This document shows, piece after piece, positions 1,942 through 43,399 of a stretch of DNA of 64,000 nt. Source of the stretch: Lagopus muta (Eukaryota; Chordata; Aves; Galliformes; Phasianidae); the NCBI RefSeq assembly GCF_023343835.1, contig NC_064435.1:86708788-86772787 (forward strand), given 5' to 3'. A program made the translations under genes and the position numbers. The notes under the pieces were generated by a model. It had not been told where the DNA came from. It did no database searches and saw only the letters and a program-made list of their open reading frames with translations. Each line of letters opens with the position of its first letter. The first letter of the stretch is position 1.

Positions 1942-2973
1942 CTAGCTGTGGCTGCCATGGCCGTCTGACCGGTGGTCGTGTCTGTGTCTCGAGCTGCGGT
2001 CTGAACGGTGGCCGGAGTTGTGGCTCCCTTGGCCGTCTGACCGGTGGTCGTGTCTGTGTCTCGAATCGTGTTCTGAACGGCGGCTGGAGCTGTGGCTCCC
2101 GTGGCCATCTGACCGGTGGTCACCTCTGTGTCTCGAATCGTGTTCTGAACGGCGGCTGGAGCTGTGGCTCCCCTGGCCGTCTGACCGGTGGTCACCTCTG
2201 TGTCTCGAGCTGCGGTCTGAGTGGTGTCTGGAGCTGTGGCTCCCGTGGCCGTCTGATCGGTGGTCGTCTCTGTGTCTCGAGCTGCGGTCTGAGTGGTGTC
2301 TGGAGCTGTGGCTCCCATGGCCGTCTGATCGGTGGCCACGGCTGTGCCTCCCGCAGCTTCTGGATCGGTGTCTGGAGCTGTGGCTCCCATGGCCGTCTGA
2401 CCGGTGGTTGTCTCTGTGTCTCGAGCTGCGGTCAGAATGGTGTCTGGAGCTGTGGCTCCCGTGGCCGTCTGATCGGTGGCCACGGCTGTGCCTCCCGCAG
2501 CGATCGTATGGGTGTCTGGAGCTGTGGCTCCCGTGGCCATCTGATCGGTGGCCACGGCTGTGCCTCCCGTCATTTTGCCCATGTCTGGCATGCCTGGGCC
2601 TTTCAACCCCCTCCATGGGCACCTCAGGATCCAGTGCCAGGTGCGGGATGACAAGCCCCAGGCCCCAGACTCCGCACGGGACCCTGCTGGGTGTCAGGGC
2701 ATCTTGAGGGGGGTCCACCTCCATGGGCTCCTCGGCATCCACCGCCGGACGGGGGATGAGGAGCCCCATGCCATTTTGTCCCCCAGCGGCATTGCTGGGC
2801 ATTGCGGTCTCCGCTGCGAGCCTGACCATTGCCTGCAGGAGATTCCTCTCACGGTGAGCGTGATGAGCTCTCCATCCTGGCAGCAGACGGCAGAAAAGAC
2901 CGCTCTTGGAAAGCTTCGCGTGCCTGCGCAGCACGCCATTCTTGGGCTGATGAAGCACGGGTGTGTTCTTCAT
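1942..2973 (-). CDS. Unknown 343-aa protein with 36-aa and His-Arg-Ser-Asp 24-aa repeats (Q module, type A)
   Basis: I do not recognise this protein. It starts MKNTPVLHQP with a favourable context (aag before the ATG). Residues 1-68 are a mixed basic region. Residues 69-104 and 105-130 are two copies of a 36-residue repeat containing AVDAEEPMEV. From residue 138 to the end there are eight and a half copies of a 24-residue repeat built on HRSDGHGSHSS, giving an SR/RD-like low-complexity tail. An AATAAA lies about 130 bp past the stop codon, and a CpG-rich block and a palindrome lie just upstream. Insertions and deletions between this copy and type B copies within the first 130 codons are 12, 12 and 108 bp, which keep the frame. 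Expression is unproven, splicing into the tail cannot be excluded, and the tail alone could be a minisatellite that happens to be open. Confidence 0.5.
   Translation of the reverse strand: MKNTPVLHQPKNGVLRRHAKLSKSGLFCRLLPGWRAHHAHRERNLLQAMVRLAAETAMPSNAAGGQNGMGLLIPRPAVDAEEPMEVDPPQDALTPSRVPCGVWGLGLVIPHLALDPEVPMEGVERPRHARHGQNDGRHSRGHRSDGHGSHSSRHPYDRCGRHSRGHRSDGHGSHSSRHHSDRSSRHRDNHRSDGHGSHSSRHRSRSCGRHSRGHRSDGHGSHSSRHHSDRSSRHRDDHRSDGHGSHSSRHHSDRSSRHRGDHRSDGQGSHSSSRRSEHDSRHRGDHRSDGHGSHSSSRRSEHDSRHRHDHRSDGQGSHNSGHRSDRSSRHRHDHRSDGHGSHS
1945..2562. repeat. 72-bp minisatellite, 8.6 copies (unit 1)
   Basis: The period is 72 bp (24 codons), recognisable by repeated gagctgtggctccc followed by ggccgtctgaccggtggtc. 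The period is a multiple of three and several frames lack stops, so frames on both strands stay open here. The unit 2 counterpart is 6258-6659 with 5.6 copies. Type B units keep only a diverged remnant. Confidence 0.93.
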
Positions 2974-2990
2974 CTTGTCCCCTCCTGGAG

Positions 2991-3010
2991 ACTAGAGACT
3001 AGTCTCTAGT
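2991..3010. promoter_or_regulatory. Perfect 20-bp palindrome 17 bp before the Q reading frame
   Basis: ACTAGAGACTAGTCTCTAGT equals its own reverse complement. It occurs unchanged at 7088-7107, 11173-11192, 15259-15278, 19371-19390, 23483-23502 and 27595-27614, in both unit types, always with 17 bp between it and the ATG. It could be a dimeric factor site, or a hairpin in the 5' leader; which one is unknown. Confidence 0.6.
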
Positions 3011-3460
3011 GGGCTGCACAGGGCACCGGACGCAAGAGCGATGGCTGTGGCTCCACGCAGCAGTGCCTCTCGTGCGCCCGTTGCACTCACTCTGCGTGCC
3101 AGGCTGCGTCGTCCTCTGGGCTTCCTGGCACCGCCTCTCTCTCGCCCACCCCCAGGTGGGCAGTCGCCTGCCTTCGTGCTCTGGCTCCTCTCCCGTCCAC
3201 GCACGCGTGGCACCCAGAAGGCCGAAGCTCGGCAAGTGTGGGCCAGCTGCCGCTGCTCCCGGACTTAGGGGGCCGTGTAAAGGGCGCGGCAGTGGTGGCC
3301 ATTGTGACGCCGCAGGCCGCTGCGATGCCCACTGTGACAGCGTGCGAGGCGTGCGGCCAACCCTGGCCGTGTTGGGCGTGGCAGGGGAGCTGTTCCGTGG
3401 CGTTGTCGTGGCGCTGAGGTTTGGGATCGGTGTGTCACACTGCAGCATCACGTAGCGTGC
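3010..3460 (-). promoter_or_regulatory. CpG-rich block upstream of the Q reading frame (candidate promoter)
   Basis: GC-rich with many CpG dinucleotides (for example cacgcacgcgtggcac and gcgaggcgtgcggcc) directly upstream of the ATG on the minus strand, while most of the unit is CpG-poorer. Further upstream, 3745-3790 holds CCAAT and tataat-like words on the minus strand. The block repeats in all units. Promoter activity is an inference from composition and position. Confidence 0.35.
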
Positions 3461-3523
3461 TGTGCGCTACAGCGTCCTTGCCGCAGTTCCGTGGATTGCC
3501 AGCGGTTCTGGGTGCCTGGTTCT

Positions 3524-3577
3524 CTGAAGAGGAGAGTGACCTGAGGCTCCCTGAAGAGGAGAGTGACCTGCGGCTCC
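3524..3577. repeat. 27-bp minisatellite (two copies in unit 1)
   Basis: gaagaggagagtgacctg followed by mggctcccw is repeated in tandem, 9 codons per copy. Units 1, 2 and 3 have two copies; units 4, 5 and 6 have three (around 15,797, 19,909 and 24,021); unit 7 ends before it. Confidence 0.85.
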
Positions 3578-3989
3578 CAGAAGACTTGGTCGTTCTGTTC
3601 CCGTTCTCCGCTCAGAGGGAAAGTTGCAGCTGACCGGGAGTCTCGAGGTTGTTCCCCTTCTGCCTGCTGTGGCTCTGTGTGCTCCCTGGCCAGGCTGCCT
3701 ACACCGTGAGAGGAAGGCCTGTGGCTTCGCCCTCCTCTATTGGATTTGTTCACTGCAGTTCCAATTATATTGCACTGTACTGTATGATCTCGCATTCCGC
3801 TGCCATTTGTAGTCAATTGGATTTTTTTTCCCTAGCTGGTGGCCGCTGCTTTTCCTCGTCCCAGCCCATCTCCCTGCCTTTTCCCTCCCCCCCTTCCCTG
3901 TTCCCTGGCGTGAGACTGCGGGTCCCTTCATCCCCTGTCAAGGGAGGGGGCCGAACCGGGCCGAACCGTGACAGGCCGGACCTCCCCAT

Positions 3990-4313
3990 TTGGAAACACA
4001 GAATCCTAGAGTCGAGTTGCAAGGGACCTCTGAAGGCCACCTGGTCCAAGTCCCCTGCAACGAACCGGGACACCACAGCTGGACCAGGTTGCCCAGGGCC
4101 TCATCCAGCCTCCCCTGGAAAGCCTGTGGGGACGGGACATCAACCACCACACTCGGTCACCTGTTGCAGTGCCTCAGCAGCCTCACTGCAAAAGATTTCT
4201 TCCTTACACGTAACCTAAACCTTCCCTCCATGAGCTCGCAGCCATTTCCCCTTGCTGTGTCGCCACAGACCCTGCTCAAGTGCCGGTCCCCTTCTTTCTT
4301 GGAGCTCCCCTGG
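3990..4313 (-). mobile_element. CR1 LINE 3' fragment inside the macrosatellite unit (unit 1)
   Basis: cacagaatcctagag, ttgcaagggacctctgaaggc and the gcctcagcagcctcactgcaaaagatttcttcc block are typical of the CR1 3' end in reverse orientation. It is 5'-truncated as usual. Copies at 8087-8410, 12172-12495, 16285-16608, 20397-20720 and 24509-24832 lie at the same place in each unit, so the insertion is older than the amplification. Confidence 0.85.
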
Positions 4314-7300
4314 CACCTGAATGCCTTTCATTAGCCACTCCTTCTTCTCTGGTCTTCAACCATTTGTTCTGTCTGTGATCCTGCAGTACTGCTGTTGGGA
4401 TAACAGAATGTTTGTTACTATGTGTATTTAGTGAGCCAGTATATCAGAACCATGAAAACATGCATGAAAACATGCAGTAGCCATTGGGCCAGTCAGGACA
4501 GGCGCAGATGTAAAGAACAAGCTCTACACCACAGTCAGGGAGAATGGCCCCACCTGGAGCCTCTGGGAGAGAGTCCCAGGGGAGACTTGATTAGACATAG
4601 GGTTTCAGAGTCGAGTACGCAGAGGATCTGAGACCTGCTGTACTCCAACTGAGAAAGAGATACGGGCAGAATACGAAGGGGTCCAAGCTGCTGCGGACGT
4701 GGTTGATACCGAACAGCAAGTCCTTTTGGTACCCCGACTGCCTGTGCTGGGCTGAATGTCCAACGGAAGGGTCCCCTCCACACGTTACGCAACTAGTGCT
4801 ATGCGGAGAAAGTGGATGGCACTGATCACACAGCGCACTTGAATAGCAATCCCGGAATCTTAGAAGGGGTTATGGACTGGTCCAAAGGCAAAGGTATTGG
4901 AATACTGCCAGCAGAGGAGGTGGTGCGCTGAAGAGGCTTTACTGTATAATAAACTGCCAGAAAACGGTGCTCTAGCACTGACTCCTGGATGGATGATGTC
5001 CAATGTCCTGTGGCGGTAGTTGCAGCAATGGAAGCAGAGCAGCTGGTAGCATAGAGGCAAACCCCCATGGGCCACTGCATTAGGGAAGGATATTGCTGCC
5101 TGGATAGTGAACATGGTTATAAAGGCTGGAGCTTTGGCTCCCGTGGCCGTCTGATGGGTGGTAGTGTCTGTGTCTGGAGTCGTGGTCTGAGCGGTGGCTG
5201 TAGCTGTGGCTCCTGAAGCAGCCTGTTTGATGGTGGCAGCTGTGCCTCCTTTCATTTTGCCCATGTCAGGCATGCCTGGGCCTGGCAACCCCCATCATGG
5301 GCGCCTCGGCATCCAATGCCAGGTGTGGCATGACGAGCAACAGGCCCCAGACTCTGCAGGGGCTACCGGAGGATAGAGGCTCCTCCATTACCTCCCCCCA
5401 GTGAAGCAGCACAGTGCAAGCAGCGCAGCCCTCTCTGCTCCTCAGAACTGGCGAGGAGAAGAGGCATTCCCAACCGGCAGGAAAGAGAGGCAGTGCTGCC
5501 ACGCATGAGGACACCAGGCAGCATACAAAATGCCTTGTGGAAAGCCAGGTGTCCCTTCAGCCATCTTTGCCACCCCTCTGCCCTGCCTTCTTCTCTGCAT
5601 GTGCAGCAATGGGCCTCAGCCGCTCCTCATACGCCTTGCCGTCGGGAACCTTTGGCGTCTTTGGACGCTGCCAGCTCATCTGCGCTTCCACGACATTCCT
5701 CTTCCGTCGTGGCGCCCCTGCTCAGTCCTTTTTCATGAAATACCCTTGTGTTTAAACAGAGGGCAAAGCAAGTCATTGTTTTTAAAAGCTTTCCAGTTGT
5801 AAGTGGTGTTAACGATGTTTGGAAGGTGTTTTGAAAACCCACGAGTTCACAGCTGACCGCGCTTTATCAGCTCGAGGTAGGGCTGGATCAGCTCCTCGAC
5901 TCTCTTGCAACCTAGCCTACCCTGTGGCCCGTGAACCCGTGTTGGGCATGACAGTGGATACTCCAGAGCCACTGCTGGAGTGGTAAATCACCTGCCAAAC
6001 TTTGGTCTACAATCAAATTGTCCCACTGCAAGGGAAAGGTCACACCCATCTGCCCCTTGCGCGTCCCCAGAGCAACCAAAGAAATCGATGCGGAAACCCT
6101 CAGCTGGGATGTTGGTGGAATTTTATTTTGTTAAAAACAGGAACGTCTTGGCCACTTGTTGTTTGTTGCCATGAGAGTGGAAAGTATTTGGCTAGACGCT
6201 GTTGTCGTATGGGTGGCCATGGCTGTGCCTCCCTCAGCTGTTGGATGGGTGGCACTAGCTGTGGCTGCCATGGCCGTCTGACCGGTGGTCGTGTCTGTGT
6301 CTCGAATCGTGTTCTGAATGGCGGCTGGAGCTGTGGCTCCCCTGGCCGTCTGACCGGTGGTCACCTCTGTGTCTCGAATCGTGTTCTGAACGGCGGCTGG
6401 AGCTGTGGCTCCCGTGGCCGTCTGACCGGTGGCCACGGCTGTGCCTCCCGCAGCTTCTGGATCGGTGTCTGGAGCTGTGGCTCCCATGGCCGTCTGACCG
6501 GTGGTTGTCTCTGTGTCTCGAGCTGCGGTCAGAATGGTGTCTGGAGCTGTGGCTCCCGTGGCTGTCTGATCGGTGGCCACGGCTGTGCCTCCCGCAGCAA
6601 TCGTATGGGTGTCTGGAGCTGTGGCTCCCGTGGCCATCTGATCGGTGGCCACGGCTGTGCCTCCCGTCATTTTGCCCATGTCCGGCATGCCTGGGCCTAT
6701 CAACCCCCTCCATGGGCACCTCAGGATCCAGTGCCAGGTGCGGGATGACAAGCCCCAGGCCCCAGACTCCGCACGGGACCCTGCTGGGTGTCAGGGCATC
6801 TTGAGGGGGGTCCACCTCCATGGGCTCCTCGGCATCCACCGCCGGACGGGGGATGAGGAGCCCCATGCCATTTTGTCCCCCAGCGGCATTGCTGGGCATT
6901 GCGGTCTCCGCTGCGAGCCTGACCATTGCCTGCAGGAGATTCCTCTCACGGTGAGCGTGATGAGCTCTCCATCCTGGCAGCAGACGGCAGAAAAGACCGC
7001 TCTTGGAAAGCTTCGCGTGCCTGCGCAGCACGCCATTCTTGGGCTGATGAAGCACGGGTGTGTTCTTCATCTTGTCCCCTCCTGGAGACTAGAGACTAGT
7101 CTCTAGTGGGCTGCACAGGGCACCGGACGCAAGAGCGATGGCTGTGGCTCCACGCAGCAGTGCCTCTCGTGCGCCCGTTGCACTCACTCTGCGTGCCAGG
7201 TGGCGTCGTCCTCTGGGCTTCCTGGCACCGCCTCTCTCTCGCCCACCCCCAGGTGGGCAGTCGCCTGCCTTCGTGCTCTGGCTCCTCTCCCGTCCACGCA

Positions 7301-8410
7301 CGCGTGGCACCCAGAAGGCCGAAGCTCGGCAAGTGTGGGCCAGCTGCCGCTGCTCCCGGACTTAGGGGGCCGTGTAAAGGGCGCGGCAGTGGTGGCCATT
7401 GTGACGCCGCAGGCCGCTGCGATGCCCACTGTGACAGCGTGCGAGGCGTGCGGCCAACCCTGGCCGTGTTGGGCGTGGCAGGGGAGCTGTTCCGTGGCGT
7501 TGTCGTGGCGCTGAGGTTTGGGATCGGTGTGTCACACTGCAGCATCACGTAGCGTGCTGTGCGCTACAGCGTCCTTGCCGCAGTTCCGTGGATTGCCAGC
7601 GGTTCTGGGTGCCTGGTTCTCTGGAGAGGAGAGTGACCTGAGACTCCCTGAAGAGGAGAGTGACCTGCGGCTCCCAGAAGACTTGGTCGTTCTGTTCCCG
7701 TTCTCCGCTCAGAGGGAAAGTTGCAGCTGACCGGGAGTCTCGAGGTTGTTCCTCTTCTGCCCGCCGTGGATCTGTGTGCTCCCTGGCCAGGCTGCCTACA
7801 CCGTGAGAGGAAGGCCTGTGGCTTCGCCCTCCTCTATTGGATTTGTTCACTGCAGTTCCAATTATATTGCACTGTACTGTATGATCTCGCATTCCGCTGC
7901 CATTTGTAGTCAATTGGATTTTTTTTCCCTAGCTGGTGGCCGCTGCTTTTCCTCGTCCCAGCCCATCTCCCTGCCTTTTCCCTCCCCCCCTTCCCTGTTC
8001 CCTGGCGTGAGACTGCGGGTCCCTTCATCCCCTGTCAAGGGAGGGGGCCGAACCGGGCCGAACCGTGACAGGCCGGACCTCCCCATTTGGAAACACAGAA
8101 TCCTAGAGTCGAGTTGCAAGGGACCTCTGAAGGCCACCTGGTCCAAGTCCCCTGCAACGAACCGGGACACCACAGCTGGACCAGGTTGCCCAGGGCCTCA
8201 TCCAGCCTCCCCTGGAAAGCCTGTGGGGACGGGACATCAACCACCACACTCGGTCACCTGTTGCAGTGCCTCAGCAGCCTCACTGCAAAAGATTTCTTCC
8301 TTACACGTAACCTAAACCTTCCCTCCATGAGCTCGCAGCCATTTCCCCTTGCTGTGTCGCCACAGACCCTGCTCAAGTGCCGGTCCCCTTCTTTCTTGGA
8401 GCTCCCCTGG
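4314..8410. repeat. Macrosatellite unit 2 (type A)
   Basis: Same layout as unit 1 but with five full plus one partial 72-bp repeats, which accounts for the 216-bp difference. Its P module reads like units 3, 5 and 7 (Ile where unit 1 has Thr near 4,995). Confidence 0.95.
6255..7070 (-). CDS. Unknown 271-aa protein, type A copy in unit 2
   Basis: Collinear with the unit 1 copy and open throughout. It differs by exactly three missing 24-residue repeats (five and a half copies left, residues 138-271) and a few substitutions in the repeats. Residues 1-130 are almost unchanged from unit 1, including both 36-residue repeats. No homology to a known family is apparent. Confidence 0.48.
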   Translation of the reverse strand: MKNTPVLHQPKNGVLRRHAKLSKSGLFCRLLPGWRAHHAHRERNLLQAMVRLAAETAMPSNAAGGQNGMGLLIPRPAVDAEEPMEVDPPQDALTPSRVPCGVWGLGLVIPHLALDPEVPMEGVDRPRHAGHGQNDGRHSRGHRSDGHGSHSSRHPYDCCGRHSRGHRSDSHGSHSSRHHSDRSSRHRDNHRSDGHGSHSSRHRSRSCGRHSRGHRSDGHGSHSSSRRSEHDSRHRGDHRSDGQGSHSSSRHSEHDSRHRHDHRSDGHGSHS

Positions 8411-11400
8411 CACCTGAATGCCTTTCATTAGCCACTCCTTCTTCTCTGGTCTTCAACCATTTGTTCGGTCTGTGATCCTGCAGTACTGCTGTTGGGATAA
8501 CAGAATGTTTGTTACTATGTGTATTTAGTGAGCTAGTATATCAGAACCATGAAAACATGCATGAAAACATGCAGTAGCCATTGGGCCAGTCAGGACAGGC
8601 GCAGTTGTAAAGAACACGCTCTACACCACAGTCAGGGAGAATGGCCCCACCTGGAGCCTCTGGGAGAGAGTCCCAGGGGAGACTTGATTAGACATAGGGT
8701 TTCAGAGTCGAGTACGCAGAGGATCTGAGACCTGCTGTACTCCAACTGAGAAAGAGATACGGGCAGAATACGAAGGGGTCCAAGCTGCTGCGGACGTGGT
8801 TGATACCGAACAGCAAGTCCTTTTGGTACCCCGACTGCCTGTGCTGGGCTGAATGTCCAACGGAAGGGTCCCCTCCACACGTTACGCAACTAGTGCTATG
8901 CGGAGAAAGTGGATGGCACTGATCACACAGCGCACTTGAATAGCAATCCCGGAATCTTAGAAGGGGTTATGGACTGGTCCAAAGGCAAAGGTATTGGAAT
9001 ACTGCCAGCAGAGGAGGTGGTGCGCTGAAGAGGCTTTACTGTATAATAAACTGCCAGAAAACGGTGCTCTAGCACTGACTCCTGGATGGATGATGTCCAA
9101 TGTCCTGTGGCGGTAGTTGCAGCAATGGAAGCAGAGCAGCTGGTAGCATAGAGGCAAACCCCCATGGGCCACTGCATTAGGGAAGGATATTGCTGCCTGG
9201 ATAGTGAACATGGTTATAAAGGCTGGAGCTTTGGCTCCCGTGGCCGTCTGATGGGTGGTAGTGTCTGTGTCTGGAGTCGTGGTCTGAGCGGTGGCTGTAG
9301 CTGTGGCTCCTGAAGCAGCCTGTTTGATGGTGGCAGCTGTGCCTCCTTTCATTTTGCCCATGTCAGGCATGCCTGGGCCTGGCAACCCCCCTCATGGGCG
9401 CCTCGGCATCCAATGCCAGGTGTGGCATGACGAGCAACAGGCCCCAGACTCTGCAGGGGCTACCGGAGGATAGAGGCTCCTCCATTACCTCCCCCCAGTG
9501 AAGCAGCACAGTGCAAGCAGCGCAGCCCTCTCTGCTCCTCAGAACTGGCGAGGAGAAGAGGCATTCCCAACCGGCAGGAAAGAGAGGCAGTGCTGCCACG
9601 CATGAGGATACCAGGCAGCATACAAAATGCCTTGTGGAAAGCCAGGTGTCCCTTCAGCCATCTTTGCCACCCCTCTGCCCTGCCTTCTTCTCTGCATGTG
9701 CAGCAATGGGCCTCAGCCGCTCCTCATACGCCTTGCCGTCGGGAACCTTTGGCGTCTTTGGACGCTGCCAGCTCATCTGCGCTTCCACGACATTCCTCTT
9801 CCGTCGTGGCGCCCCTGCTCAGTCCTTTTTCATGAAATACCCTTGTGTTTAAACAGAGGGCAAAGCAAGTCATTGTTTTTAAAAGCTTTCCAGTTGTAAG
9901 TGGTGTTAACGATGTTTGGAGGGTGTTTTGAAAACCCACGAGTTCACAGCTGACCGCGCTTTATCAGCTCGAGGTAGGGCTGGATCAGCTCCTCGACTCT
10001 CTTGCAACCTAGCCTACCCTGTGGCCCGTGAACCCGTGTTGGGCATGACAGTGGATACTCCAGAGCCACTGCTGGAGTGGTAAATCACCTGCCAAACATT
10101 GGTCTACAATCAAATTGTCCCACTGCAAGGGAAAGGTCACACCCATCTGCCCCTCGCGCGTCCCCAGAGCAACCAAAGAAATCGATGCGGAAACCCTCAG
10201 CTGGGATGTTGGTGGAATTTTATTTTGTTAAAAACAGGAACGTCTTGGCCACTTGTTGTTTGTTGCCATGAGAGTGGAAAGTATTTGGCTAGACGCTGTT
10301 GTCTTATCGATGGCCATGGCTGTGCCTCCCGCAGTTGTCAGAGCGGTGGCACTTGCTGTGGATCCCAAGGCCACGTGATTGCTGGTCGTGTCTGTGACTC
10401 AGGTCGTCTTCTGAACGGTAGCGGGAGCTGTGGCTCCTGTGGTCATCTGATCGGTGTTTGCCTCTGTGTCTCGAGTTGTGGACTGAATGGTGGATGGAGC
10501 TGTGGCTCCTATGGTCGTCTGATGGATGGTCGGTCACGTCCTTGTCTGGAGTCCTGGTCCGAATAGCGGCTGTGGCTTCCACAGCTGCCTGTTTGGTGTT
10601 GGCAGCTATGGTGCCTGCCGTCATTTAGTCCATGTCCGGCATGCCTGGGGCTCACTACATCTCCATGGGCACCACAGCGTCCACCGCCGGGTGCGGGATG
10701 AGGAGCCCCTGGCCTTGCACTCCGCAGGGGACCCCGCTGAGTGTCGGGGCATATTGAGGGGGGCCCACCTCCATGGGCTCCTCGGCATCCACTGCCGGAT
10801 GGGGGATGAGAAGCCCCATGCCCTGCACTCCACAGGGGACCCCGCTGAGTGTCGGGGCATACTGAGGCGGGCCCACCTCCATGGGCTCCTCGGCATCCAC
10901 CGCCGGACGGGGGATGAGGAGCCCCATGCCATTTTGTCCCCAGGCGGCGTCGCTGCGCATCGCGATCTCCACTGTGGTCTCCACTGCGCGCCTGATCATT
11001 GCCTGCAGGAGATTCCTCTCACGGCGAGCGTGATGAGCTCTCCATCCTGGCAGCGGGCGGCAGAAAAGACTCTCTTGCGCGCCGCTCTCGGAGCGCTGCG
11101 CGCGCTTGTGCAGCACGCCATTCTTGGGCTGATGAAGCACGGGTGTGTTCTTCATCTTGTCCCCTCCTGGAGACTAGAGACTAGTCTCTAGTGGGCTGCA
11201 CAGGGCACCGGACGCAAGAGCGATGGCTGTGGCTCCACGCAGCAGTGCCTCTCGTGCGCCCGTTGCACTCACTCTGCGTGCCAGGTGGCGTCGTCCTCTG
11301 CGCTTCCTGGCACCGCCTCTCTCTCGCCCACCCCCAGGTGGGCAGTCGCCTGCCTTCGTGCTCTGGCTCCTCTCCCGTCCACGCACGCGTGGCACCCAGA

Positions 11401-12495
11401 AGGCCGAAGCTCGGCAAGTGTGGGCCAGCTGCCGCTGCTCCCGGACTTAGGGGGCCGTGTAAAGGGCGCGGCAGTGGTGGCCATTGTGACGCCGCAGGCC
11501 GCTGCGATGCCCACTGTGACAGCGTGCGAGGCGTGCGGCCAACCCTGGCCGTGTTGGGCGTGGCAGGGGAGCTGTTCCGTGGCGTTGTCGTGGCGCTGAG
11601 GTTTGGGATCGGTGTGTCACACTGCAGCATCACGTAGCGTGCTGTGCGCTACAGCGTCCTTGCCGCAGTTCCGTGGATTGCCAGCGGTTCTGGGTGCCTG
11701 GTTCTCTGGAGAGGAGAGTGACCTGAGACTCCCTGAAGAGGAGAGTGACCTGCGGCTCCCAGAAGACTTGGTCGTTCTGTTCCCGTTCTCCGCTCAGAGG
11801 GAAAGTTGCAGCTGACCGGGAGTCTCGAGGTTGTTCCTCTTCTGCCCGCCGTGGATCTGTGTGCTCCCTGGCCAGGCTGCCTACACCGTGAGAGGAAGGC
11901 CTGTGGCTTCGCCCTCCTCTATTGGATTTGTTCACTGCAGTTCCAATTATATTGCACTGTACTGTATGATCTCGCATTCCGCTGCCATTTGTAGTCAATT
12001 GGATTTTTTTTCCCTAGCTGGTGGCCGCTGCTTTTCCTCGTCCCAGCCCATCTCCCTGCCTTTTCCCTCCCCCCCTTCCCTGTTCCCTGGCGTGAGACTG
12101 CGGGTCCCTTCATCCCCTGTCAAGGGAGGGGGCCGAACCGGGCCGAACCGTGACAGGCCGGACCTCCCCATTTGGAAACACAGAATCCTAGAGTCGAGTT
12201 GCAAGGGACCTCTGAAGGCCACCTGGTCCAAGTCCCCTGCAATGAACCGGGACACCACAGCTGGACCAGGTTGCCCAGGGCCTCATCCAGCCTCCCCTGG
12301 AAAGCCTGTGGGGACGGGACATCAACCACCACACTCGGTCACCTGTTGCAGTGCCTCAGCAGCCTCACTGCAAAAGATTTCTTCCTTACACGTAACCTAA
12401 ACCTTCCCTCCATGAGCTCGCAGCCATTTCCCCTTGCTGTGTCGCCACAGACCCTGCTCAAGTGCCGGTCCCCTTCTTTCTTGGAGCTCCCCTGG
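8411..12495. repeat. Macrosatellite unit 3 (first type B)
   Basis: Nearly identical to unit 2 outside roughly 10,303-11,115, where the Q module switches to the type B sequence: no long 72-bp repeat block and three instead of two 108-bp repeats. Two copies of the 27-bp repeat. Confidence 0.95.
10655..11155 (-). CDS. Unknown 166-aa protein, type B copy in unit 3
   Basis: The first 15 residues are identical to type A, then the sequence diverges with in-frame 4-residue insertions near residues 25 and 62. The 36-residue repeat is present two and a half times (residues 77-112, 113-148 and 149-166) instead of one and a half. The frame ends at a TAG just after PMEM, where type A continues into the 24-residue repeats; a 1-bp deletion at the same place also shifts the frame. 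Downstream, 10,304-10,624 is still open in the minus direction and rich in His, Ser, Arg and Asp, so a spliced form could still reach a related tail. Confidence 0.45.
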   Translation of the reverse strand: MKNTPVLHQPKNGVLHKRAQRSESGAQESLFCRPLPGWRAHHARRERNLLQAMIRRAVETTVEIAMRSDAAWGQNGMGLLIPRPAVDAEEPMEVGPPQYAPTLSGVPCGVQGMGLLIPHPAVDAEEPMEVGPPQYAPTLSGVPCGVQGQGLLIPHPAVDAVVPMEM

Positions 12496-16608: not shown

Positions 16609-19600
16609 CACCTGAATGCCTTTCATTAGCCACTCCTTCTTCTCTGGTCTTCAACCATTTGTTCGGTCTGTGATCCTGCAGTACTGCTGTTGGGATAACA
16701 GAATGTTTGTTACTATGTGTATTTAGTGAGCTAGTATATCAGAACCATGAAAACATGCATGAAAACATGCAGTAGCCATTGGGCCAGTCAGGACAGGCGC
16801 AGTTGTAAAGAACACGCTCTACACCACAGTCAGGGAGAATGGCCCCACCTGGAGCCTCTGGGAGAGAGTCCCAGGGGAGACTTGATTAGACATAGGGTTT
16901 CAGAGTCGAGTACGCAGAGGATCTGAGACCTGCTGTACTCCAACTGAGAAAGAGATACGGGCAGAATACGAAGGGGTCCAAGCTGCTGCGGACGTGGTTG
17001 ATACCGAACAGCAAGTCCTTTTGGTACCCCGACTGCCTGTGCTGGGCTGAATGTCCAACGGAAGGGTCCCCTCCACACGTTACGCAACTAGTGCTATGCG
17101 GAGAAAGTGGATGGCACTGATCACACAGCGCACTTGAATAGCAATCCCGGAATCTTAGAAGGGGTTATGGACTGGTCCAAAGGCAAAGGTATTGGAATAC
17201 TGCCAGCAGAGGAGGTGGTGCGCTGAAGAGGCTTTACTGTATAATAAACTGCCAGAAAACGGTGCTCTAGCACTGACTCCTGGATGGATGATGTCCAATG
17301 TCCTGTGGCGGTAGTTGCAGCAATGGAAGCAGAGCAGCTGGTAGCATAGAGGCAAACCCCCATGGGCCACTGCATTAGGGAAGGATATTGCTGCCTGGAT
17401 AGTGAACATGGTTATAAAGGCTGGAGCTTTGGCTCCCGTGGCCGTCTGATGGGTGGTAGTGTCTGTGTCTGGAGTCGTGGTCTGAGCGGTGGCTGTAGCT
17501 GTGGCTCCTGAAGCAGCCTGTTTGATGGTGGCAGCTGTGCCTCCTTTCATTTTGCCCATGTCAGGCATGCCTGGGCCTGGCAACCCCCCTCATGGGCGCC
17601 TCGGCATCCAATGCCAGGTGTGGCATGACGAGCAACAGGCCCCAGACTCTGCAGGGGCTACCGGAGGATAGAGGCTCCTCCATTACCTCCCCCCAGCGAA
17701 GCAGCCCAGTGCAAGCAGCGCAGCCCTCTCTGCTCCTCAGAACTGGCGAGGAGAAGAGGCATTCCCAACCGGCAGGAAAGAGAGGCAGTGCTGCCACGCA
17801 TGAGGACACCAGGCAGCATACAAAATGCCTTGTGGAAAGCCAGGTGTCCCTTCAGCCATCTTTGCCACCCCTCTGCCCTGCCTTCTTCTCTGCATGTGCA
17901 GCAATGGGCCTCAGCCGCTCCTCATACGCCTTGCCGTCGGGAACCTTTGGCGTCTTTGGACGCTGCCAGCTCATCTGCGCTTCCACGACATTCCTCTTCC
18001 GTCGTGGCGCCCCTGCTCAGTCCTTTTTCATGAAATACCCTTGTGTTTAAACAGAGGGCAAAGCAAGTCATTGTTTTTAAAAGCTTTCCAGTTGTAAGTG
18101 GTGTTAACGATGTTTGGAGGGTGTTTTGAAAACCCACGAGTTCACAGCTGACCGCGCTTTATCAGCTCGAGGTAGGGCTGGATCAGCTCCTCGACTCTCT
18201 TGCAACCTAGCCTACCCTGTGGCCCGTGAACCCGTGTTGGGCATGACAGTGGATACTCCAGAGCCACTGCTGGAGTGGTAAATCACCTGCCAAACATTGG
18301 TCTACAATCAAATTGTCCCACTGCAAGGGAAAGGTCACACCCATCTGCCCCTCGCGCGTCCCCAGAGCAACCAAAGAAATCGATGCGGAAACCCTCAGCT
18401 GGGATGTTGGTGGAATTTTATTTTGTTAAAAACAGGAACGTCTTGGCCACTTGTTGTTTGTTGCCATGAGAGTGGAAAGTATTTGGCTAGACGCTGTTGT
18501 CTTATCGATGGCCATGGCTGTGCCTCCCGCAGTTGTCAGAGCGGTGGCACTTGCTGTGGATCCCAAGGCCACGTGATTGCTGGTCGTGTCTGTGACTCAG
18601 GTCGTCTTCTGAACGGTAGCGGGAGCTGTGGCTCCTGTGGTCATCTGATCGGTGTTTGCCTCTGTGTCTCGAGTTGTGGACTGAATGGTGGATGGAGCTG
18701 TGGCTCCTATGGTCGTCTGATGGATGGTCGGTCACGTCCTTGTCTGGAGTCCTGGTCCGAATAGCGGCTGTGGCTTCCACAGCTGCCTGTTTGGTGTTGG
18801 CAGCTATGGTGCCTGCCGTCATTTAGTCCATGTCCGGCATGCCTGGGGCTCACTACATCTCCATGGGCACCACAGCGTCCACCGCCGGGTGCGGGATGAG
18901 GAGCCCCTGGCCTTGCACTCCGCAGGGGACCCCGCTGAGTGTCGGGGCATATTGAGGGGGGCCCACCTCCATGGGCTCCTCGGCATCCACTGCCGGATGG
19001 GGGATGAGAAGCCCCATGCCCTGCACTCCACAGGGGACCCCGCTGAGTGTCGGGGCATACTGAGGCGGGCCCACCTCCATGGGCTCCTCGGCATCCACCG
19101 CCGGACGGGGGATGAGGAGCCCCATGCCATTTTGTCCCCAGGCGGCGTCGCTGCGCATCGCGATCTCCACTGTGGTCTCCACTGCGCGCCTGATCATTGC
19201 CTGCAGGAGATTCCTCTCACGGCGAGCGTGATGAGCTCTCCATCCTGGCAGCGGGCGGCAGAAAAGACTCTCTTGCGCGCCGCTCTCGGAGCGCTGCGCG
19301 CGCTTGTGCAGCACGCCATTCTTGGGCTGATGAAGCACGGGTGTGTTCTTCATCTTGTCCCCTCCTGGAGACTAGAGACTAGTCTCTAGTGGGCTGCACA
19401 GGGCACCGGACGCAAGAGCGATGGCTGTGGCTCCACGCAGCAGTGCCTCTCGTGCGCCCGTTGCACTCACTCTGCGTGCCAGGTGGCGTCGTCCTCTGCG
19501 CTTCCTGGCACCGCCTCTCTCTCGCCCACCCCCAGGTGGGCAGTCGCCTGCCTTCGTGCTCTGGCTCCTCTCCCGTCCACGCACGCGTGGCACCCAGAAG

Positions 19601-20720
19601 GCCGAAGCTCGGCAAGTGTGGGCCAGCTGCCGCTGCTCCCGGACTTAGGGGGCCGTGTAAAGGGCGCGGCAGTGGTGGCCATTGTGACGCCGCAGGCCGC
19701 TGCGATGCCCACTGTGACAGCGTGCGAGGCGTGCGGCCAACCCTGGCCGTGTTGGGCGTGGCAGGGGAGCTGTTCCGTGGCGTTGTCGTGGCGCTGAGGT
19801 TTGGGATCGGTGTGTCACACTGCAGCATCACGTAGCGTGCTGTGCGCTACAGCGTCCTTGCCGCAGTTCCGTGGATTGCCAGCGGTTCTGGGTGCCTGGT
19901 TCTCTGGAGAGGAGAGTGACCTGAGGCTCCCTGAAGAGGAGAGTGACCTGCGGCTCCCTGAAGAGGAGAGTGACCTGCGGCTCCCAGAAGACTTGGTCGT
20001 TCTGTTCCCGTTCTCCGCTCAGAGGGAAAGTTGCAGCTGACCGGGAGTCTCGAGGTTGTTCCTCTTCTGCCCGCCGTGGATCTGTGTGCTCCCTGGCCAG
20101 GCTGCCTACACCGTGAGAGGAAGGCCTGTGGCTTCGCCCTCCTCTATTGGATTTGTTCACTGCAGTTCCAATTATATTGCACTGTACTGTATGATCTCGC
20201 ATTCCGCTGCCATTTGTAGTCAATTGGATTTTTTTTCCCTAGCTGGTGGCCGCTGCTTTTCCTCGTCCCAGCCCATCTCCCTGCCTTTTCCCTCCCCCCC
20301 TTCCCTGTTCCCTGGCGTGAGACTGCGGGTCCCTTCATCCCCTGTCAAGGGAGGGGGCCGAACCGGGCCGAACCGTGACAGGCCGGACCTCCCCATTTGG
20401 AAACACAGAATCCTAGAGTCGAGTTGCAAGGGACCTCTGAAGGCCACCTGGTCCAAGTCCCCTGCAATGAACCGGGACACCACAGCTGGACCAGGTTGCC
20501 CAGGGCCTCATCCAGCCTCCCCTGGAAAGCCTGTGGGGACGGGACATCAACCACCACACTCGGTCACCTGTTGCAGTGCCTCAGCAGCCTCACTGCAAAA
20601 GATTTCTTCCTTACACGTAACCTAAACCTTCCCTCCATGAGCTCGCAGCCATTTCCCCTTGCTGTGTCGCCACAGACCCTGCTCAAGTGCCGGTCCCCTT
20701 CTTTCTTGGAGCTCCCCTGG
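16609..20720. repeat. Macrosatellite unit 5 (type B)
   Basis: Type B with three 27-bp repeats. Diagnostic variants in the P and Q modules match unit 3. Confidence 0.95.
18853..19353 (-). CDS. Unknown 166-aa protein, type B copy in unit 5
   Basis: Same protein as in unit 3. The downstream His/Ser/Arg-rich frame is at 18,502-18,822. Confidence 0.45.
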   Translation of the reverse strand: MKNTPVLHQPKNGVLHKRAQRSESGAQESLFCRPLPGWRAHHARRERNLLQAMIRRAVETTVEIAMRSDAAWGQNGMGLLIPRPAVDAEEPMEVGPPQYAPTLSGVPCGVQGMGLLIPHPAVDAEEPMEVGPPQYAPTLSGVPCGVQGQGLLIPHPAVDAVVPMEM

Positions 20721-23700
20721 CACCTGAATGCCTTTCATTAGCCACTCCTTCTTCTCTGGTCTTCAACCATTTGTTCTGTCTGTGATCCTGCAGTACTGCT
20801 GTTGGGATAACAGAATGTTTGTTACTATGTGTATTTAGTGAGCTAGTATATCAGAACCATGAAAACATGCATGAAAACATGCAGTAGCCATTGGGCCAGT
20901 CAGGACAGGCGCAGATGTAAAGAACACGCTCTACACCACAGTCAGGGAGAATGGCCCCACCTGGAGCCTCTGGGAGAGAGTCCCAGGGGAGACTTGATTA
21001 GACATAGGGTTTCAGAGTCGAGTACGCAGAGGATCTGAGACCTGCTGTACTCCAACTGAGAAAGAGATACGGGCAGAATACGAAGGGGTCCAAGCTGCTG
21101 CGGACGTGGTTGATACCGATCAGCAAGTCCTTTTGGTACCCCGACTGCCTGTGCTGGGCTGAATGTCCAACGGAAGGGTCCCCTCCACACGTTACGCAAC
21201 TAGTGCTATGCGGAGAAAGTGGATGGCACTGATCACACAGCGCACTTGAATAGCAATCCCGGAATCTTAGAAGGGGTTATGGACTGGTCCAAAGGCAAAG
21301 GTATTGGAATACTGCCAGCAGAGGAGGTGGTGCGCTGAAGAGGCTTTACTGTATAATAAACTGCCAGAAAACGGTGCTCTAGCACTGACTCCTGGATGGA
21401 TGGTGTCCAATGTCCTGTGGCGGTAGTTGCAGCAATGGAAGCAGAGCAGCTGGTAGCATAGAGGCAAACCCCCATGGGCCACTGCATTAGGGAAGGATAT
21501 TGCTGCCTGGATAGTGAACATGGTTATAAAGGCTGGAGCTTTGGCTCCCGTGGCCGTCTGATGGGTGGTAGTGTCTGTGTCTGGAGTCGTGGTCTGAGCG
21601 GTGGCTGTAGCTGTGGCTCCTGAAGCAGCCTGTTTGATGGTGGCAGCTGTGCCTCCTTTCATTTTGCCCATGTCAGGCATGCCTGGGCCTGGCAACCCCC
21701 CTCATGGGCGCCTCGGCATCCAATGCCAGGTGTGGCATGACGAGCAACAGGCCCCAGACTCTGCAGGGGCTACCGGAGGATAGAGGCTCCTCCATTACCT
21801 CCCCCCAGCGAAGCAGCCCAGTGCAAGCAGCGCAGCCCTCTCTGCTCCTCAGAACTGGCGAGGAGAAGAGGCATTCCCAACCGGCAGGAAAGAGAGGCAG
21901 TGCTGCCACGCATGAGGACACCAGGCAGCATACAAAATGCCTTGTGGAAAGCCAGGTGTCCCTTCAGCCATCTTTGCCACCCCTCTGCCCTGCCTTCTTC
22001 TCTGCATGTGCAGCAATGGGCCTCAGCCGCTCCTCATACGCCTTGCCGTCGGGAACCTTTGGCGTCTTTGGATGCTGCCAGCTCATCTGCGCTTCCACGA
22101 CATTCCTCTTCCGTCGTGGCGCCCCTGCTCAGTCCTTTTTCATGAAATACCCTTGTGTTTAAACAGAGGGCAAAGCAAGTCATTGTTTTTAAAAGCTTTC
22201 CAGTTGTAAGTGGTGTTAACGATGTTTGGAGGGTGTTTTGAAAACCCACGAGTTCACAGCTGACCGCGCTTTATCAGCTCGAGGTAGGGCTGGATCAGCT
22301 CCTCGACTCTCTTGCAACCTAGCCTACCCTGTGGCCCGTGAACCCGTGTTGGGCATGACAGTGGATACTCCAGAGCCACTGCTGGAGTGGTAAATCACCT
22401 GCCAAACATTGGTCTACAATCAAATTGTCCCACTGCAAGGGAAAGGTCACACCCATCTGCCCCTCGCGCGTCCCCAGAGCAACCAAAGAAATCGATGCGG
22501 AAACCCTCAGCTGGGATGTTGGTGGAATTTTATTTTGTTAAAAACAGGAACGTCTTGGCCACTTGTTGTTTGTTGCCATGAGAGTGGAAAGTATTTGGCT
22601 AGACGCTGTTGTCTTATCGATGGCCATGGCTGTGCCTCCCGCAGTTGTCAGAGCGGTGGCACTTGCTGTGGATCCCAAGGCCACGTGATTGCTGGTCGTG
22701 TCTGTGACTCAGGTCGTCTTCTGAACGGTAGCGGGAGCTGTGGCTCCTGTGGTCATCTGATCGGTGTTTGCCTCTGTGTCTCGAGTTGTGGACTGAATGG
22801 TGGATGGAGCTGTGGCTCCTATGGTCGTCTGATGGATGGTCGGTCACGTCCTTGTCTGGAGTCCTGGTCCGAATAGCGGCTGTGGCTTCCACAGCTGCCT
22901 GTTTGGTGTTGGCAGCTATGGTGCCTGCCGTCATTTAGTCCATGTCCGGCATGCCTGGGGCTCACTACATCTCCATGGGCACCACAGCGTCCACCGCCGG
23001 GTGCGGGATGAGGAGCCCCTGGCCTTGCACTCCGCAGGGGACCCCGCTGAGTGTCGGGGCATATTGAGGGGGGCCCACCTCCATGGGCTCCTCGGCATCC
23101 ACTGCCGGATGGGGGATGAGAAGCCCCATGCCCTGCACTCCACAGGGGACCCCGCTGAGTGTCGGGGCATACTGAGGCGGGCCCACCTCCATGGGCTCCT
23201 CGGCATCCACTGCCGGACGGGGGATGAGGAGCCCCATGCCATTTTGTCCCCAGGCGGCGTCGCTGCGCATCGCGATCTCCACTGTGGTCTCCACTGCGCG
23301 CCTGATCATTGCCTGCAGGAGATTCCTCTCACGGCGAGCGTGATGAGCTCTCCATCCTGGCAGCGGGCGGCAGAAAAGACTCTCTTGCGCGCCGCTCTCG
23401 GAGCGCTGCGCGCGCTTGTGCAGCACGCCATTCTTGGGCTGATGAAGCACGGGTGTGTTCTTCATCTTGTCCCCTCCTGGAGACTAGAGACTAGTCTCTA
23501 GTGGGCTGCACAGGGCACCGGACGCAAGAGCGATGGCTGTGGCTCCACGCAGCAGTGCCTCTCGTGCGCCCGTTGCACTCACTCTGCGTGCCAGGTGGCG
23601 TCGTCCTCTGCGCTTCCTGGCACCGCCTCTCTCTCGCCCACCCCCAGGTGGGCAGTCGCCTGCCTTCGTGCTCTGGCTCCTCTCCCGTCCACGCACGCGT

Positions 23701-24832
23701 GGCACCCAGAAGGCCGAAGCTCGGCAAGTGTGGGCCAGCTGCCGCTGCTCCCGGACTTAGGGGGCCGTGTAAAGGGCGCGGCAGTGGTGGCCATTGTGAC
23801 GCCGCAGGCCGCTGCGATGCCCACTGTGACAGCGTGCGAGGCGTGCGGCCAACCCTGGCCGTGTTGGGCGTGGCAGGGGAGCTGTTCCGTGGCGTTGTCG
23901 TGGCGCTGAGGTTTGGGATCGGTGTGTCACACTGCAGCATCACGTAGCGTGCTGTGCGCTACAGCGTCCTTGCCGCAGTTCCGTGGATTGCCAGCGGTTC
24001 TGGGTGCCTGGTTCTCTGGAGAGGAGAGTGACCTGAGGCTCCCTGAAGAGGAGAGTGACCTGCGGCTCCCTGAAGAGGAGAGTGACCTGCGGCTCCCAGA
24101 AGACTTGGTCGTTCTGTTCCCGTTCTCCGCTCAGAGGGAAAGTTGCAGCTGACCGGGAGTCTCGAGGTTGTTCCTCTTCTGCCCGCCGTGGATCTGTGTG
24201 CTCCCTGGCCAGGCTGCCTACACCGTGAGAGGAAGGCCTGTGGCTTCGCCCTCCTCTATTGGATTTGTTCACTGCAGTTCCAATTATATTGCACTGTACT
24301 GTATGATCTCGCATTCCGCTGCCATTTGTAGTCAATTGGATTTTTTTTCCCTAGCTGGTGGCCGCTGCTTTTCCTCGTCCCAGCCCATCTCCCTGCCTTT
24401 TCCCTCCCCCCCTTCCCTGTTCCCTGGCGTGAGACTGCGGGTCCCTTCATCCCCTGTCAAGGGAGGGGGCCGAACCGGGCCGAACCGTGACAGGCCGGAC
24501 CTCCCCATTTGGAAACACAGAATCCTAGAGTCGAGTTGCAAGGGACCTCTGAAGGCCACCTGGTCCAAGTCCCCTGCAATGAACCGGGACACCACAGCTG
24601 GACCAGGTTGCCCAGGGCCTCATCCAGCCTCCCCTGGAAAGCCTGTGGGGACGGGACATCAACCACCACACTCGGTCACCTGTTGCAGTGCCTCAGCAGC
24701 CTCACTGCAAAAGATTTCTTCCTTACACGTAACCTAAACCTTCCCTCCATGAGCTCGCAGCCATTTCCCCTTGCTGTGTCGCCACAGACCCTGCTCAAGT
24801 GCCGGTCCCCTTCTTTCTTGGAGCTCCCCTGG
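20721..24832. repeat. Macrosatellite unit 6 (type B)
   Basis: Type B, the same length as unit 5, but with the unit 4 set of diagnostic variants. Confidence 0.95.
22965..23465 (-). CDS. Unknown 166-aa protein, type B copy in unit 6
   Basis: Same protein as in unit 4, with the unit 4/6 nucleotide markers. The downstream His/Ser/Arg-rich frame is at 22,614-22,934. Confidence 0.45.
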   Translation of the reverse strand: MKNTPVLHQPKNGVLHKRAQRSESGAQESLFCRPLPGWRAHHARRERNLLQAMIRRAVETTVEIAMRSDAAWGQNGMGLLIPRPAVDAEEPMEVGPPQYAPTLSGVPCGVQGMGLLIPHPAVDAEEPMEVGPPQYAPTLSGVPCGVQGQGLLIPHPAVDAVVPMEM

Positions 24833-27800
24833 CACCTGAATGCCTTTCATTAGCCACTCCTTCTTCTCTGGTCTTCAACCATTTGTTCGGTCTGTGATCC
24901 TGCAGTACTGCTGTTGGGATAACAGAATGTTTGTTACTATGTGTATTTAGTGAGCTAGTATATCAGAACCATGAAAACATGCATGAAAACATGCAGTAGC
25001 CATTGGGCCAGTCAGGACAGGCGCAGATGTAAAGAACACGCTCTACACCACAGTCAGGGAGAATGGCCCCACCTGGAGCCTCTGGGAGAGAGTCCCAGGG
25101 GAGACTTGATTAGACATAGGGTTTCAGAGTCGAGTACGCAGAGGATCTGAGACCTGCTGTACTCCAACTGAGAAAGAGATACGGGCAGAATACGAAGGGG
25201 TCCAAGCTGCTGCGGACGTGGTTGATACCGAACAGCAAGTCCTTTTGGTACCCCGACTGCCTGTGCTGGGCTGAATGTCCAACAGAAGGGTCCCCTCCAC
25301 ACGTTACGCAACTAGTGCTATGCGGAGAAAGTGGATGGCACTGATCACACAGCGGACTTGAATAGCAATCCCGGAATCTTAGAAGGGGTTATGGACTGGT
25401 CCAAAGGCAAAGGTATTGGAATACTGCCAGCAGAGGAGGTGGTGCGCTGAAGAGGCTTTACTGTATAATAAACTGCCAGAAAACGGTGCTCTAGCACTGA
25501 CTCCTGGATGGATGATGTCCAATGTCCTGTGGCGGTAGTTGCAGCAATGGAAGCAGAGCAGCTGGTAGCATAGAGGCAAACCCCCATGGGCCACTGCATT
25601 AGGGAAGGATATTGCTGCCTGGATAGTGAACATGGTTATAAAGGCTGGAGCTTTGGCTCCCGTGGCCGTCTGATGGGTGGTAGTGTCTGTGTCTGGAGTC
25701 GTGGTCTGAGCGGTGGCTGTAGCTGTGGCTCCTGAAGCAGCCTGTTTGATGGTGGCAGCTGTGCCTCCTTTCATTTTGCCCATGTCAGGCATGCCTGGGC
25801 CTGGCAACCCCCCTCATGGGCGCCTCGGCATCCAATGCCAGGTGTGGCATGACGAGCAACAGGCCCCAGACTCTGCAGGGGCTACCGGAGGATAGAGGCT
25901 CCTCCATTACCTCCCCCCAGCGAAGCAGCCCAGTGCAAGCAGCGCAGCCCTCTCTGCTCCTCAGAACTGGCGAGGAGAAGAGGCATTCCCAACCGGCAGG
26001 AAAGAGAGGCAGTGCTGCCACGCATGAGGACACCAGGCAGCATACAAAATGCCTTGTGGAAAGCCAGGTGTCCCTTCAGCCATCTTTGCCACCCCTCTGC
26101 CCTGCCTTCTTCTCTGCATGTGCAGCAATGGGCCTCAGCCGCTCCTCATACGCCTTGCCGTCGGGAACCTTTGGCGTCTTTGGATGCTGCCAGCTCATCT
26201 GCGCTTCCACGACATTCCTCTTCCGTCGTGGCGCCCCTGCTCAGTCCTTTTTCATGAAATACCCTTGTGTTTAAACAGAGGGCAAAGCAAGTCATTGTTT
26301 TTAAAAGCTTTCCAGTTGTAAGTGGTGTTAACGATGTTTGGAGGGTGTTTTGAAAACCCACGAGTTCACAGCTGACCGCGCTTTATCAGCTCGAGGTAGG
26401 GCTGGATCAGCTCCTCGACTCTCTTGCAACCTAGCCTACCCTGTGGCCCGTGAACCCGTGTTGGGCATGACAGTGGATACTCCAGAGCCACTGCTGGAGT
26501 GGTAAATCACCTGCCAAACTTTGGTCTACAATCAAATTGTCCCACTGCAAGGGAAAGGTCACACCCATCTGGCCCTCGCGCGTCCCCAGAGCAACCAAAG
26601 AAATCGATGCGGAAACCCTCAGCTGGGATGTTGGTGGAATTTTATTTTGTTAAAAACAGGAACGTCTTGGCCACTTGTTGTTTGTTGCCATGAGAGTGGA
26701 AAGTATTTGGCTAGACGCTGTTGTCTTATCAATGGCCATGGCTGTGCCTCCCGCAGTTGTCAGAGCGGTGGCACTTGCTGTGGATCCCAAGGCCACGTGA
26801 TTCCTGGTCGTGTCTGTGACTCAGGTCGTCTTCTGAACGGTAGCGGGAGCTGTGGCTCCTGTGGTCATCTGATCGGTGTTTGCCTCTGTGTCTCGAGTTG
26901 TGGACTGAATGGTGGATGGAGCTGTGGCTCCTATGGTCGTCTGATGGATGGTCGGTCACGTCCTTGTCTGGAGTCCTGGTCCGAATAGCGGCTGTGGCTT
27001 CCACAGCTGCCTGTTTGGTGTTGGCAGCTATGGTGCCTGCCATCATTTAGTCCATGTCCGGCATGCCTGGGGCTCACTACATCTCCATGGGCACCACAGC
27101 GTCCACCGCCGGGTGCGGGATGAGGAGCCCCTGGCCTTGCACTCCGCAGGGGACCCCGCTGAGTGTCGGGGCATATTGAGGGGGGCCCACCTCCATGGGC
27201 TCCTCGGCATCCACTGCCGGATGGGGGATGAGAAGCCCCATGCCCTGCACTCCACAGGGGACCCCGCTGAGTGTCGGGGCATACTGAGGCGGGCCCACCT
27301 CCATGGGCTCCTCGGCATCCACCGCCGGACGGGGGATGAGGAGCCCCATGCCATTTTGTCCCCAGGCGGCGTCGCTGCGCATCGCGATCTCCACTGTGGT
27401 CTCCACTGCGCGCCTGATCATTGCCTGCAGGAGATTCCTCTCACGGCGAGCGTGATGAGCTCTCCATCCTGGCAGCGGGCGGCAGAAAAGACTCTCTTGC
27501 GCGCCGCTCTCGGAGCGCTGCGCGCGCTTGTGCAGCACGCCATTCTTGGGCTGATGAAGCACGGGTGTGTTCTTCATCTTGTCCCCTCCTGGAGACTAGA
27601 GACTAGTCTCTAGTGGGCTGCACAGGGCACCGGACGCAAGAGCGATGGCTGTGGCTCCACGCAGCAGTGCCTCTCGTGCGCCCGTTGCACTCACTCTGCG
27701 TGCCAGGTGGCGTCGTCCTCTGGGCTTCCTGGCACCGCCTCTCTCTCGCCCACCCCCAGGTGGGCAGTCGCCTGCCTTCGTGCTCTGGCTCCTCTCCCGT

Positions 27801-28118
27801 CCACGCACGCGTGGCACCCAGAAGGCCGAAGCTCGGCAAGTGTGGGCCAGCTGCCGCTGCTCCCGGACTTAGGGGGCCGTGTAAAGGGCGCGGCAGTGGT
27901 GGCCATTGTGACGCCGCAGGCCGCTGCGATGCCCACTGTGACAGCGTGCGAGGCGTGCGGCCAACCCTGGCCGTGTTGGGCGTGGCAGGGGAGCTGTTCC
28001 GTGGCGTTGTCGTGGCGCTGAGGTTTGGGATCGGTGTGTCACACTGCAGCATCACGTAGCGTGCTGTGCGCTACAGCGTCCTTGCCGCAGTTCCGTGGAT
28101 TGCCAGTGGTTCTGGGTG
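24833..28118. repeat. Macrosatellite unit 7 (type B), truncated on the right
   Basis: Complete through the Q module and the CpG-rich block. It stops after tgccagtggttctgggtgcc, so the 27-bp repeats, the pyrimidine tract and the CR1 are missing. It carries a mixture of unit 3/5-type and unit 4/6-type variants. Confidence 0.93.
27077..27577 (-). CDS. Unknown 166-aa protein, type B copy in unit 7
   Basis: Same protein as in the other type B units, intact although the unit is truncated upstream of the 27-bp repeats. If a promoter lies in the CpG-rich block at 27,614-28,060, it is still present here. The downstream frame at 26,729-27,046 is open but one codon shorter. Confidence 0.45.
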   Translation of the reverse strand: MKNTPVLHQPKNGVLHKRAQRSESGAQESLFCRPLPGWRAHHARRERNLLQAMIRRAVETTVEIAMRSDAAWGQNGMGLLIPRPAVDAEEPMEVGPPQYAPTLSGVPCGVQGMGLLIPHPAVDAEEPMEVGPPQYAPTLSGVPCGVQGQGLLIPHPAVDAVVPMEM

Positions 28119-43321: not shown

Positions 43322-43399
43322 CTCCCCTCCGACGAGCCCCTCGCCGCGGCCGTTCCCAGCGGCGGCACCTGCACGGCGGCGGGGCCGGCCCGGGGCGGC

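Follow-up and report, generated by a model that had tools for sequence, protein, structure and literature searches.

The window analysed here, a 64,000-nucleotide stretch of the Lagopus muta (ptarmigan) assembly (contig NC_064435.1, hereafter C3; C3:86708788-86772787), contains part of a tandem array in which every unit carries a minus-strand open reading frame (ORF) beginning MKNTPVLHQP. The arrays of this type, their open frames, the CpG islands over the ORF starts and a synonymous bias among variable sites are directly observed; taken together, they suggest that the unit carries a real, unnamed, fast-evolving protein gene that is still in use, a reading to which we assign a probability of roughly 0.64. 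Positions below and in Table 1 are those of the window, and array coordinates outside it are given on C3.

Searching the genome with the block upstream of the ORF and with the protein recovered 12 complete ORFs in this array (array 1), seven of type A and five of type B. Seven of the 12 lie inside the window, and to the left the array continues beyond it to an ORF at C3:86690429. The preliminary description of this DNA placed a multicopy gene at 1942-27577; its seven MKNTPVLHQP frames are present where it put them, but the interval covers only part of array 1. A second array (array 2; C3:88002951-88048739) lies 1.27 Mb from the first in the same orientation and contains 12 ORFs, all of type B, in units 98% alike to the last type B unit of array 1. 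Copy counts from the genome search are lower bounds, and the family comprises at least 24 ORFs over the two arrays. Within the window, ORF-to-ORF spacing is 4085-4112 bp, and all 22 intervals measured across both arrays are 4084-4313 bp; the arrays thus consist of homogenised, head-to-tail, kilobase-scale units, the organisation of a macrosatellite.

Each unit retains one intact ORF: all 24 complete ORFs (7 type A, 17 type B) are open and share the MKNTPVLHQP start. Type A ORFs encode 343 (n = 4), 319 (n = 2) or 271 (n = 1) amino acids (aa), and type B ORFs 166 (n = 8) or 202 (n = 9), the longer B form differing by a clean 108-bp step that corresponds to one extra 36-codon repeat. As translated, type B proteins are short and contain PMEV repeats of 36 residues, and type A proteins have fewer such repeats and a long His/Arg/Ser-rich tail. 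By eye, type B ends at a stop just 5′ of a 1-bp length difference from type A, and consequently lacks the type A tail. The 36-residue repeat does keep its reading frame, as had been claimed: the 17 B-type ORFs contain 43 full in-frame copies, exactly the number expected from their lengths (8 × 2 + 9 × 3). Nucleotide sequences of the ORFs are distinct in seven of seven type A copies, two of five type B copies in array 1, and six of 12 in array 2.

The features described around the ORF are likewise present. The ATG lies in the context GACAAG-ATG-A (A at −3); AATAAA occurs 3′ of the ORF on the minus strand in all seven window units; and in the same seven, a CpG island 0.8-1.0 kb long extends over the start of the ORF and the upstream block. 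These islands match in length those at the neighbouring gene that we take to be NHLRC1 (31801-33000) and beside the TPMT exons (42801-44100), and the mean observed/expected CpG ratio in background windows is 0.25. The same scan also called shorter CpG stretches elsewhere in the units (e.g., 8701-9000, 26701-27000). A conserved 5′ splice site was sought by eye in the upstream block of the array units and was not found.

A diverged solo copy (S) on the plus strand at C3:72097395 helps to delimit the probable gene within the unit. Leaving aside a degenerate second copy of repeats and tail, which sits in the spacer, S matches only about 1.4 kb, comprising the upstream block, the ORF and the AATAAA region; because homology is confined to this segment, it appears to mark a gene module, with the remaining approximately 2.7 kb as spacer. 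A retrocopy origin of S was rejected, since homology continues beyond the poly(A) site. Every unit also has in its spacer a dispersed repeat of about 500 bp, with a plus-strand AATAAA close to its end, that is mostly 68-75% like copies on eight other contigs (40 of 408 candidates scored); it is probably an old mobile-element remnant, perhaps of long terminal repeat type. Alignment comparisons of units and arrays used pieces longer than 500 bp.

Protein-level constraint appears in two comparisons, the variable sites of the B-type copies and S versus the arrays, and these favour coding; it is not seen between A and B or among A copies. Because copies exchange sequence, sites rather than copies were counted. 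Among the 17 B-type copies, 12 distinct sites vary between and within copies, of which nine are synonymous and three non-synonymous (sites in the 36-codon repeat were counted once over all repeats, and the last, partial repeat of each copy was excluded). The expected non-synonymous share under several mutation models is 0.65-0.74; the 9:3 bias has P = 0.0008-0.0054 at shares of 0.65-0.73 and P = 0.015 at 0.60. Repeat sites alone show seven synonymous to two non-synonymous (P = 0.002-0.025), three of these nine sites varying only between repeat positions and not between copies. The raw count from an alignment of mixed-length B copies (6 non-synonymous, 17 synonymous codons) was not used, as it sets different repeat copies against each other.

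Comparison of S with types A and B over 76 codons gave ratios of non-synonymous to synonymous differences per site (pN/pS) of 0.42 and 0.40, respectively, in the sense frame; the five other frames gave 0.80-1.07 and 0.63-1.92, with blocks picked by eye and with indel codons and those around the S frameshift omitted. Neutral simulations placed the sense-frame ratio at P = 0.004-0.007, and CpG-aware spectra at P = 0.0045-0.056. Fourteen copies of the AVDAEEPMEV motif from the arrays, S and decayed relics gave 0.51 in the sense frame and 0.79-1.25 in the others, a contrast biased by the fact that the relics were found via protein similarity in the sense frame.

The synonymous bias in the B-type copies and the low pN/pS against S in the sense frame weigh against a rival explanation: that the macrosatellite is non-coding, and its ORF a by-product of GC-rich, stop-poor tandem repeats with a period that is a multiple of three. 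Any function would then belong to the DNA itself or to a long repeat transcript, such as an architectural RNA on lampbrush loops. Chance alone readily yields the shorter frame, as 166 aa was reached in 38% of dinucleotide shuffles of the B unit (P = 0.38; 271 aa was reached in 2.3% for the A unit). Other frames are also open, including an antisense frame of 222 codons (26945-27610), and outside the ORF, spacer indels of 27 and 30 bp are likewise multiples of three, with one of 1 bp alongside. ORF length and the frame-keeping indels offered in the preliminary description are therefore weak arguments for coding. The upstream block is also better conserved than the ORF blocks (56/342 versus 55/228 differing sites between S and B, P = 0.024). 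Weighing these points against the synonymous bias and the low pN/pS, we consider a non-coding array unlikely.

The antisense 222-codon ORF was rejected as a gene, with six non-synonymous to three synonymous repeat sites and ratios of 1.07 and 1.59 against S; by coordinate arithmetic, the third position of this open frame is the first position of the sense frame. The antisense frame whose third positions match those of the sense frame gives the same 7:2 count but, by its coordinates, is interrupted by stop codons within the ORF region.

Types A and B differ in a single diverged block, which begins around codon 16 and ends close to the poly(A) signal and in which identity per stretch is 66-93% with gaps; over 96 gap-free N-terminal codons it is 91%. 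Outside this block, two A units differ from one B unit at 0 to 10 sites per 250 bp. Persistence of the block inside homogenised units implies either that length differences hinder exchange or that both versions are kept. The preliminary description reported length changes of 12, 12 and 108 bp between the types. With S as outgroup, and judged by eye, the first two are a deletion in A and an insertion in B, both in frame; the 108-bp change holds if the second repeat of A is paired with the last, partial repeat of B, but in the automatic alignment this region is fragmented by several gaps (21, 48, 34, 3 bp and others).

Several results weigh against a protein gene in use, in addition to the selection of blocks and relics already described. 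The A-B dN/dS comparison, put forward earlier as a check, gave 0.69 (bootstrap 0.32-1.96, 96 codons) and is not distinguishable from 1; A-B pN/pS is 0.58 in the sense frame and 0.43-1.11 in the five others, so that another frame has a smaller value than the sense frame, and neutral simulations gave P = 0.23-0.26. Variation among the seven A copies is neutral-like (10 non-synonymous to 8 synonymous codons, P = 0.09-0.44), the four 343-aa copies show five to four, and the 12-codon tail repeats of type A show five non-synonymous to two synonymous sites in one class and 18 to 5 in the other. A third-position bias in the former class did not hold as a synonymous bias, given this 5:2 count. The faster divergence of the ORF blocks relative to the upstream block points the same way. 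In S, two frameshifts that compensate each other affect about 14 codons in a segment predicted as helix in type B, and an early stop follows. No family was matched by type A, type B or S in Pfam at E-values up to 1 (DUX4 and USP17 domains included), by types A and B in NCBIfam, or by type B among PDB sequences, in agreement with the initial failure to assign the protein. Finally, the AlphaFold2 model of type B is of low confidence, with a predicted local distance difference test score of 48.6.

Part of this evidence would also fit a family that was once coding and is now drifting, in which constraint acted formerly and function was lost before the arrays spread as a satellite. Five decayed relatives lie on the same contig, at 86.91, 87.68, 88.06, 88.15 and 88.32 Mb, and a further decayed fragment adjoins array 2; the relics retain parts of the upstream block, repeats or tail and are interrupted by stops and frame shifts. 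S itself is poor in CpG, contains frameshifts and is cut short, the A copies vary as if neutral, and the type B stop, as judged by eye, lies just 5′ of the length difference from A. Against continued drift stand a synonymous bias that is still present in recent B-type variation and 24 of 24 open copies, although exchange between copies reduces the latter to few independent events, which lessens its value for the coding reading as well. We regard this scenario as less likely again than a non-coding array. Relics L050, L051, L052, L053 and L054 are older, decayed versions of the module, and the upstream block is the best-kept part of L050 and L051. Genome matches of two ORF proteins were all on C3 (83/83 and 38/38, among the matches listed).

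The multicopy gene proposed in the preliminary description stands as the best-supported reading, with ORF length, frame-keeping indels and A-B dN/dS proving weak or inconclusive as grounds for it. If a protein gene is in use, its minus-strand module of about 1.4 kb would comprise a CpG-island promoter, an ORF needing no intron and a poly(A) signal, set beside about 2.7 kb of spacer, and each unit's promoter would drive a short mRNA that can do without introns. Unequal crossing-over and gene conversion would have amplified the module, which now numbers at least 24 copies across two arrays of a single chromosome, and kept the unit bodies alike, with two protein versions (A and B) persisting. The product would most probably be a germline or early-embryo nuclear protein, supplied at high dose through copy number; promoter, transcription, germline timing and nuclear role are all features that we infer. 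Timing is suggested by CpG retention. Of 20 B-type CpGs in the ORF blocks, two are CpG and 12 are TG or CA in S, with no change the opposite way; at the 30 CpGs of the upstream block, S has CpG in four cases and TG or CA in 18, with two the opposite way. The pattern is consistent with methylation and CpG loss at S and with arrays that are free of methylation in the germ line. Given a gene in use, a germline or early-embryo role is somewhat more probable than not.

The type B protein is predicted to be mostly disordered, with a helix at residues 38-68, and the type A tail could, as a guess by analogy, resemble the RS-type (arginine/serine) tails of nuclear RNA-binding proteins. Rfam at gathering scores returned nothing in window positions 1-28500, and a scan of viral_contigs returned 12 pattern matches, none of them a relative. 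The array is not named in the accessible portions of the literature on chicken macrosatellites, lumpy loops and KIF13A/NHLRC1, although an earlier description may still exist.

An inverted repeat of 0.9 kb has one arm on either side of array 1 and could permit inversion of the array. To the right of array 1 are a single-exon gene with RING and NHL domains, which from this architecture we take to be NHLRC1 (malin), then TPMT and KDM1B, the last starting about 27 kb from the array; the SWIRM piece of KDM1B (54906-55142) and its last amine-oxidase piece fall under the Pfam cut-off. KDM1B is a histone demethylase important in the mouse oocyte. The order NHLRC1, TPMT, KDM1B is presumably that of human 6p22.3 and chicken chromosome 2, and on this assumed synteny the site of array 1 is probably the counterpart of the long arm of chicken chromosome 2. 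Left of array 2, a degenerate pol-like fragment, presumably endogenous retroviral from its motif, adjoins a simple purine repeat (C3:87996399-87997340).

Table 1. Coordinates of array, unit and neighbouring features (window positions unless marked C3).
Feature	Position	Strand	Basis or remark
Array 1, portion in window	1-28120		Array homology spans C3:86689043-86736907 and stops at window 28120
Type A ORF, 343 aa, sixth of array 1	1942-2973	-	ORF list and genome search
Type A ORF, 271 aa, seventh of array 1, at A/B border	6255-7070	-	ORF list and genome search
Type B ORF, 166 aa	10655-11155	-	ORF list and genome search
Type B ORF, 166 aa	14741-15241	-	ORF list and genome search
Type B ORF, 166 aa	18853-19353	-	ORF list and genome search
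Type B ORF, 166 aa	22965-23465	-	ORF list and genome search
Type B ORF, 166 aa, last of array 1	27077-27577	-	ORF list and genome search
AATAAA downstream of last ORF	26641-26646	-	Solo-copy homology crosses site; first base 26646
AATAAA in other window units (first base)	1814, 6127, 10224, 14310, 18422, 22534	-	Sequence scan
CpG island, last unit	27201-28200		CpG scan
CpG islands, other window units	2801-3600, 6901-7700, 10801-11800, 14901-15900, 19001-20000, 23101-24000		CpG scan
Degenerate second copy of repeat/tail part, TGA-interrupted	25602-25889	-	Last unit; same in others
Dispersed repeat in spacer of each unit	24990-25483	+	Match to copies elsewhere in genome
Right arm of 0.9-kb inverted repeat bracketing array 1 (98.9% identity)	28765-29660		Left arm C3:86686492-86687382
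Single-exon RING and NHL gene, right of array 1	31518-32771	-	Domain architecture
TPMT exons (two pieces matched)	41340-42685	-	Sequence match
KDM1B exons	54906-62784	+	Piece 58571-58810 matches KDM1B chains

The best-known gene-bearing macrosatellites are mammalian and carry germline and embryo genes that are sensitive to dosage. Those of the D4Z4/DUX4 and RS447/USP17 types share with the ptarmigan array head-to-tail, GC- and CpG-rich units of kilobase length, one intron-independent ORF per unit, and strong homogenisation; the ptarmigan system differs in its protein without a Pfam match, its bird host, and its two arrays of 12 ORFs in the assembly. It would offer a bird case with a family-less protein, two versions within a single array, a second array 1.27 Mb distant and decayed relics nearby, in which one could ask how genes of this kind originate, avoid decaying into pseudogenes and remain homogenised. 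The chicken Z amplicon, a testis-expressed array, is likewise a set of tandemly amplified bird genes with a presumed germline role, whereas the ptarmigan array is not on the Z chromosome if the assumed synteny is right. A third likeness, also to a galliform tandem array, is to LL2R, the repeat under the lumpy loops of chicken lampbrush chromosome 2, which has been described as non-coding (PMC7151628); it lies on the long arm, and its loops lie in a somatic B compartment (PMC10268536). The two are likened by description rather than by sequence, and the parallel is a lead only: that a galliform-specific protein family resides on a macrosatellite that is also the transcribed repeat behind these loops is a long shot. 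If true, a repeat filed as a non-coding architectural RNA would be a many-copy maternal gene with two old versions kept apart in one array, and the ptarmigan array allows a concrete test of whether a lampbrush-loop repeat can be coding.

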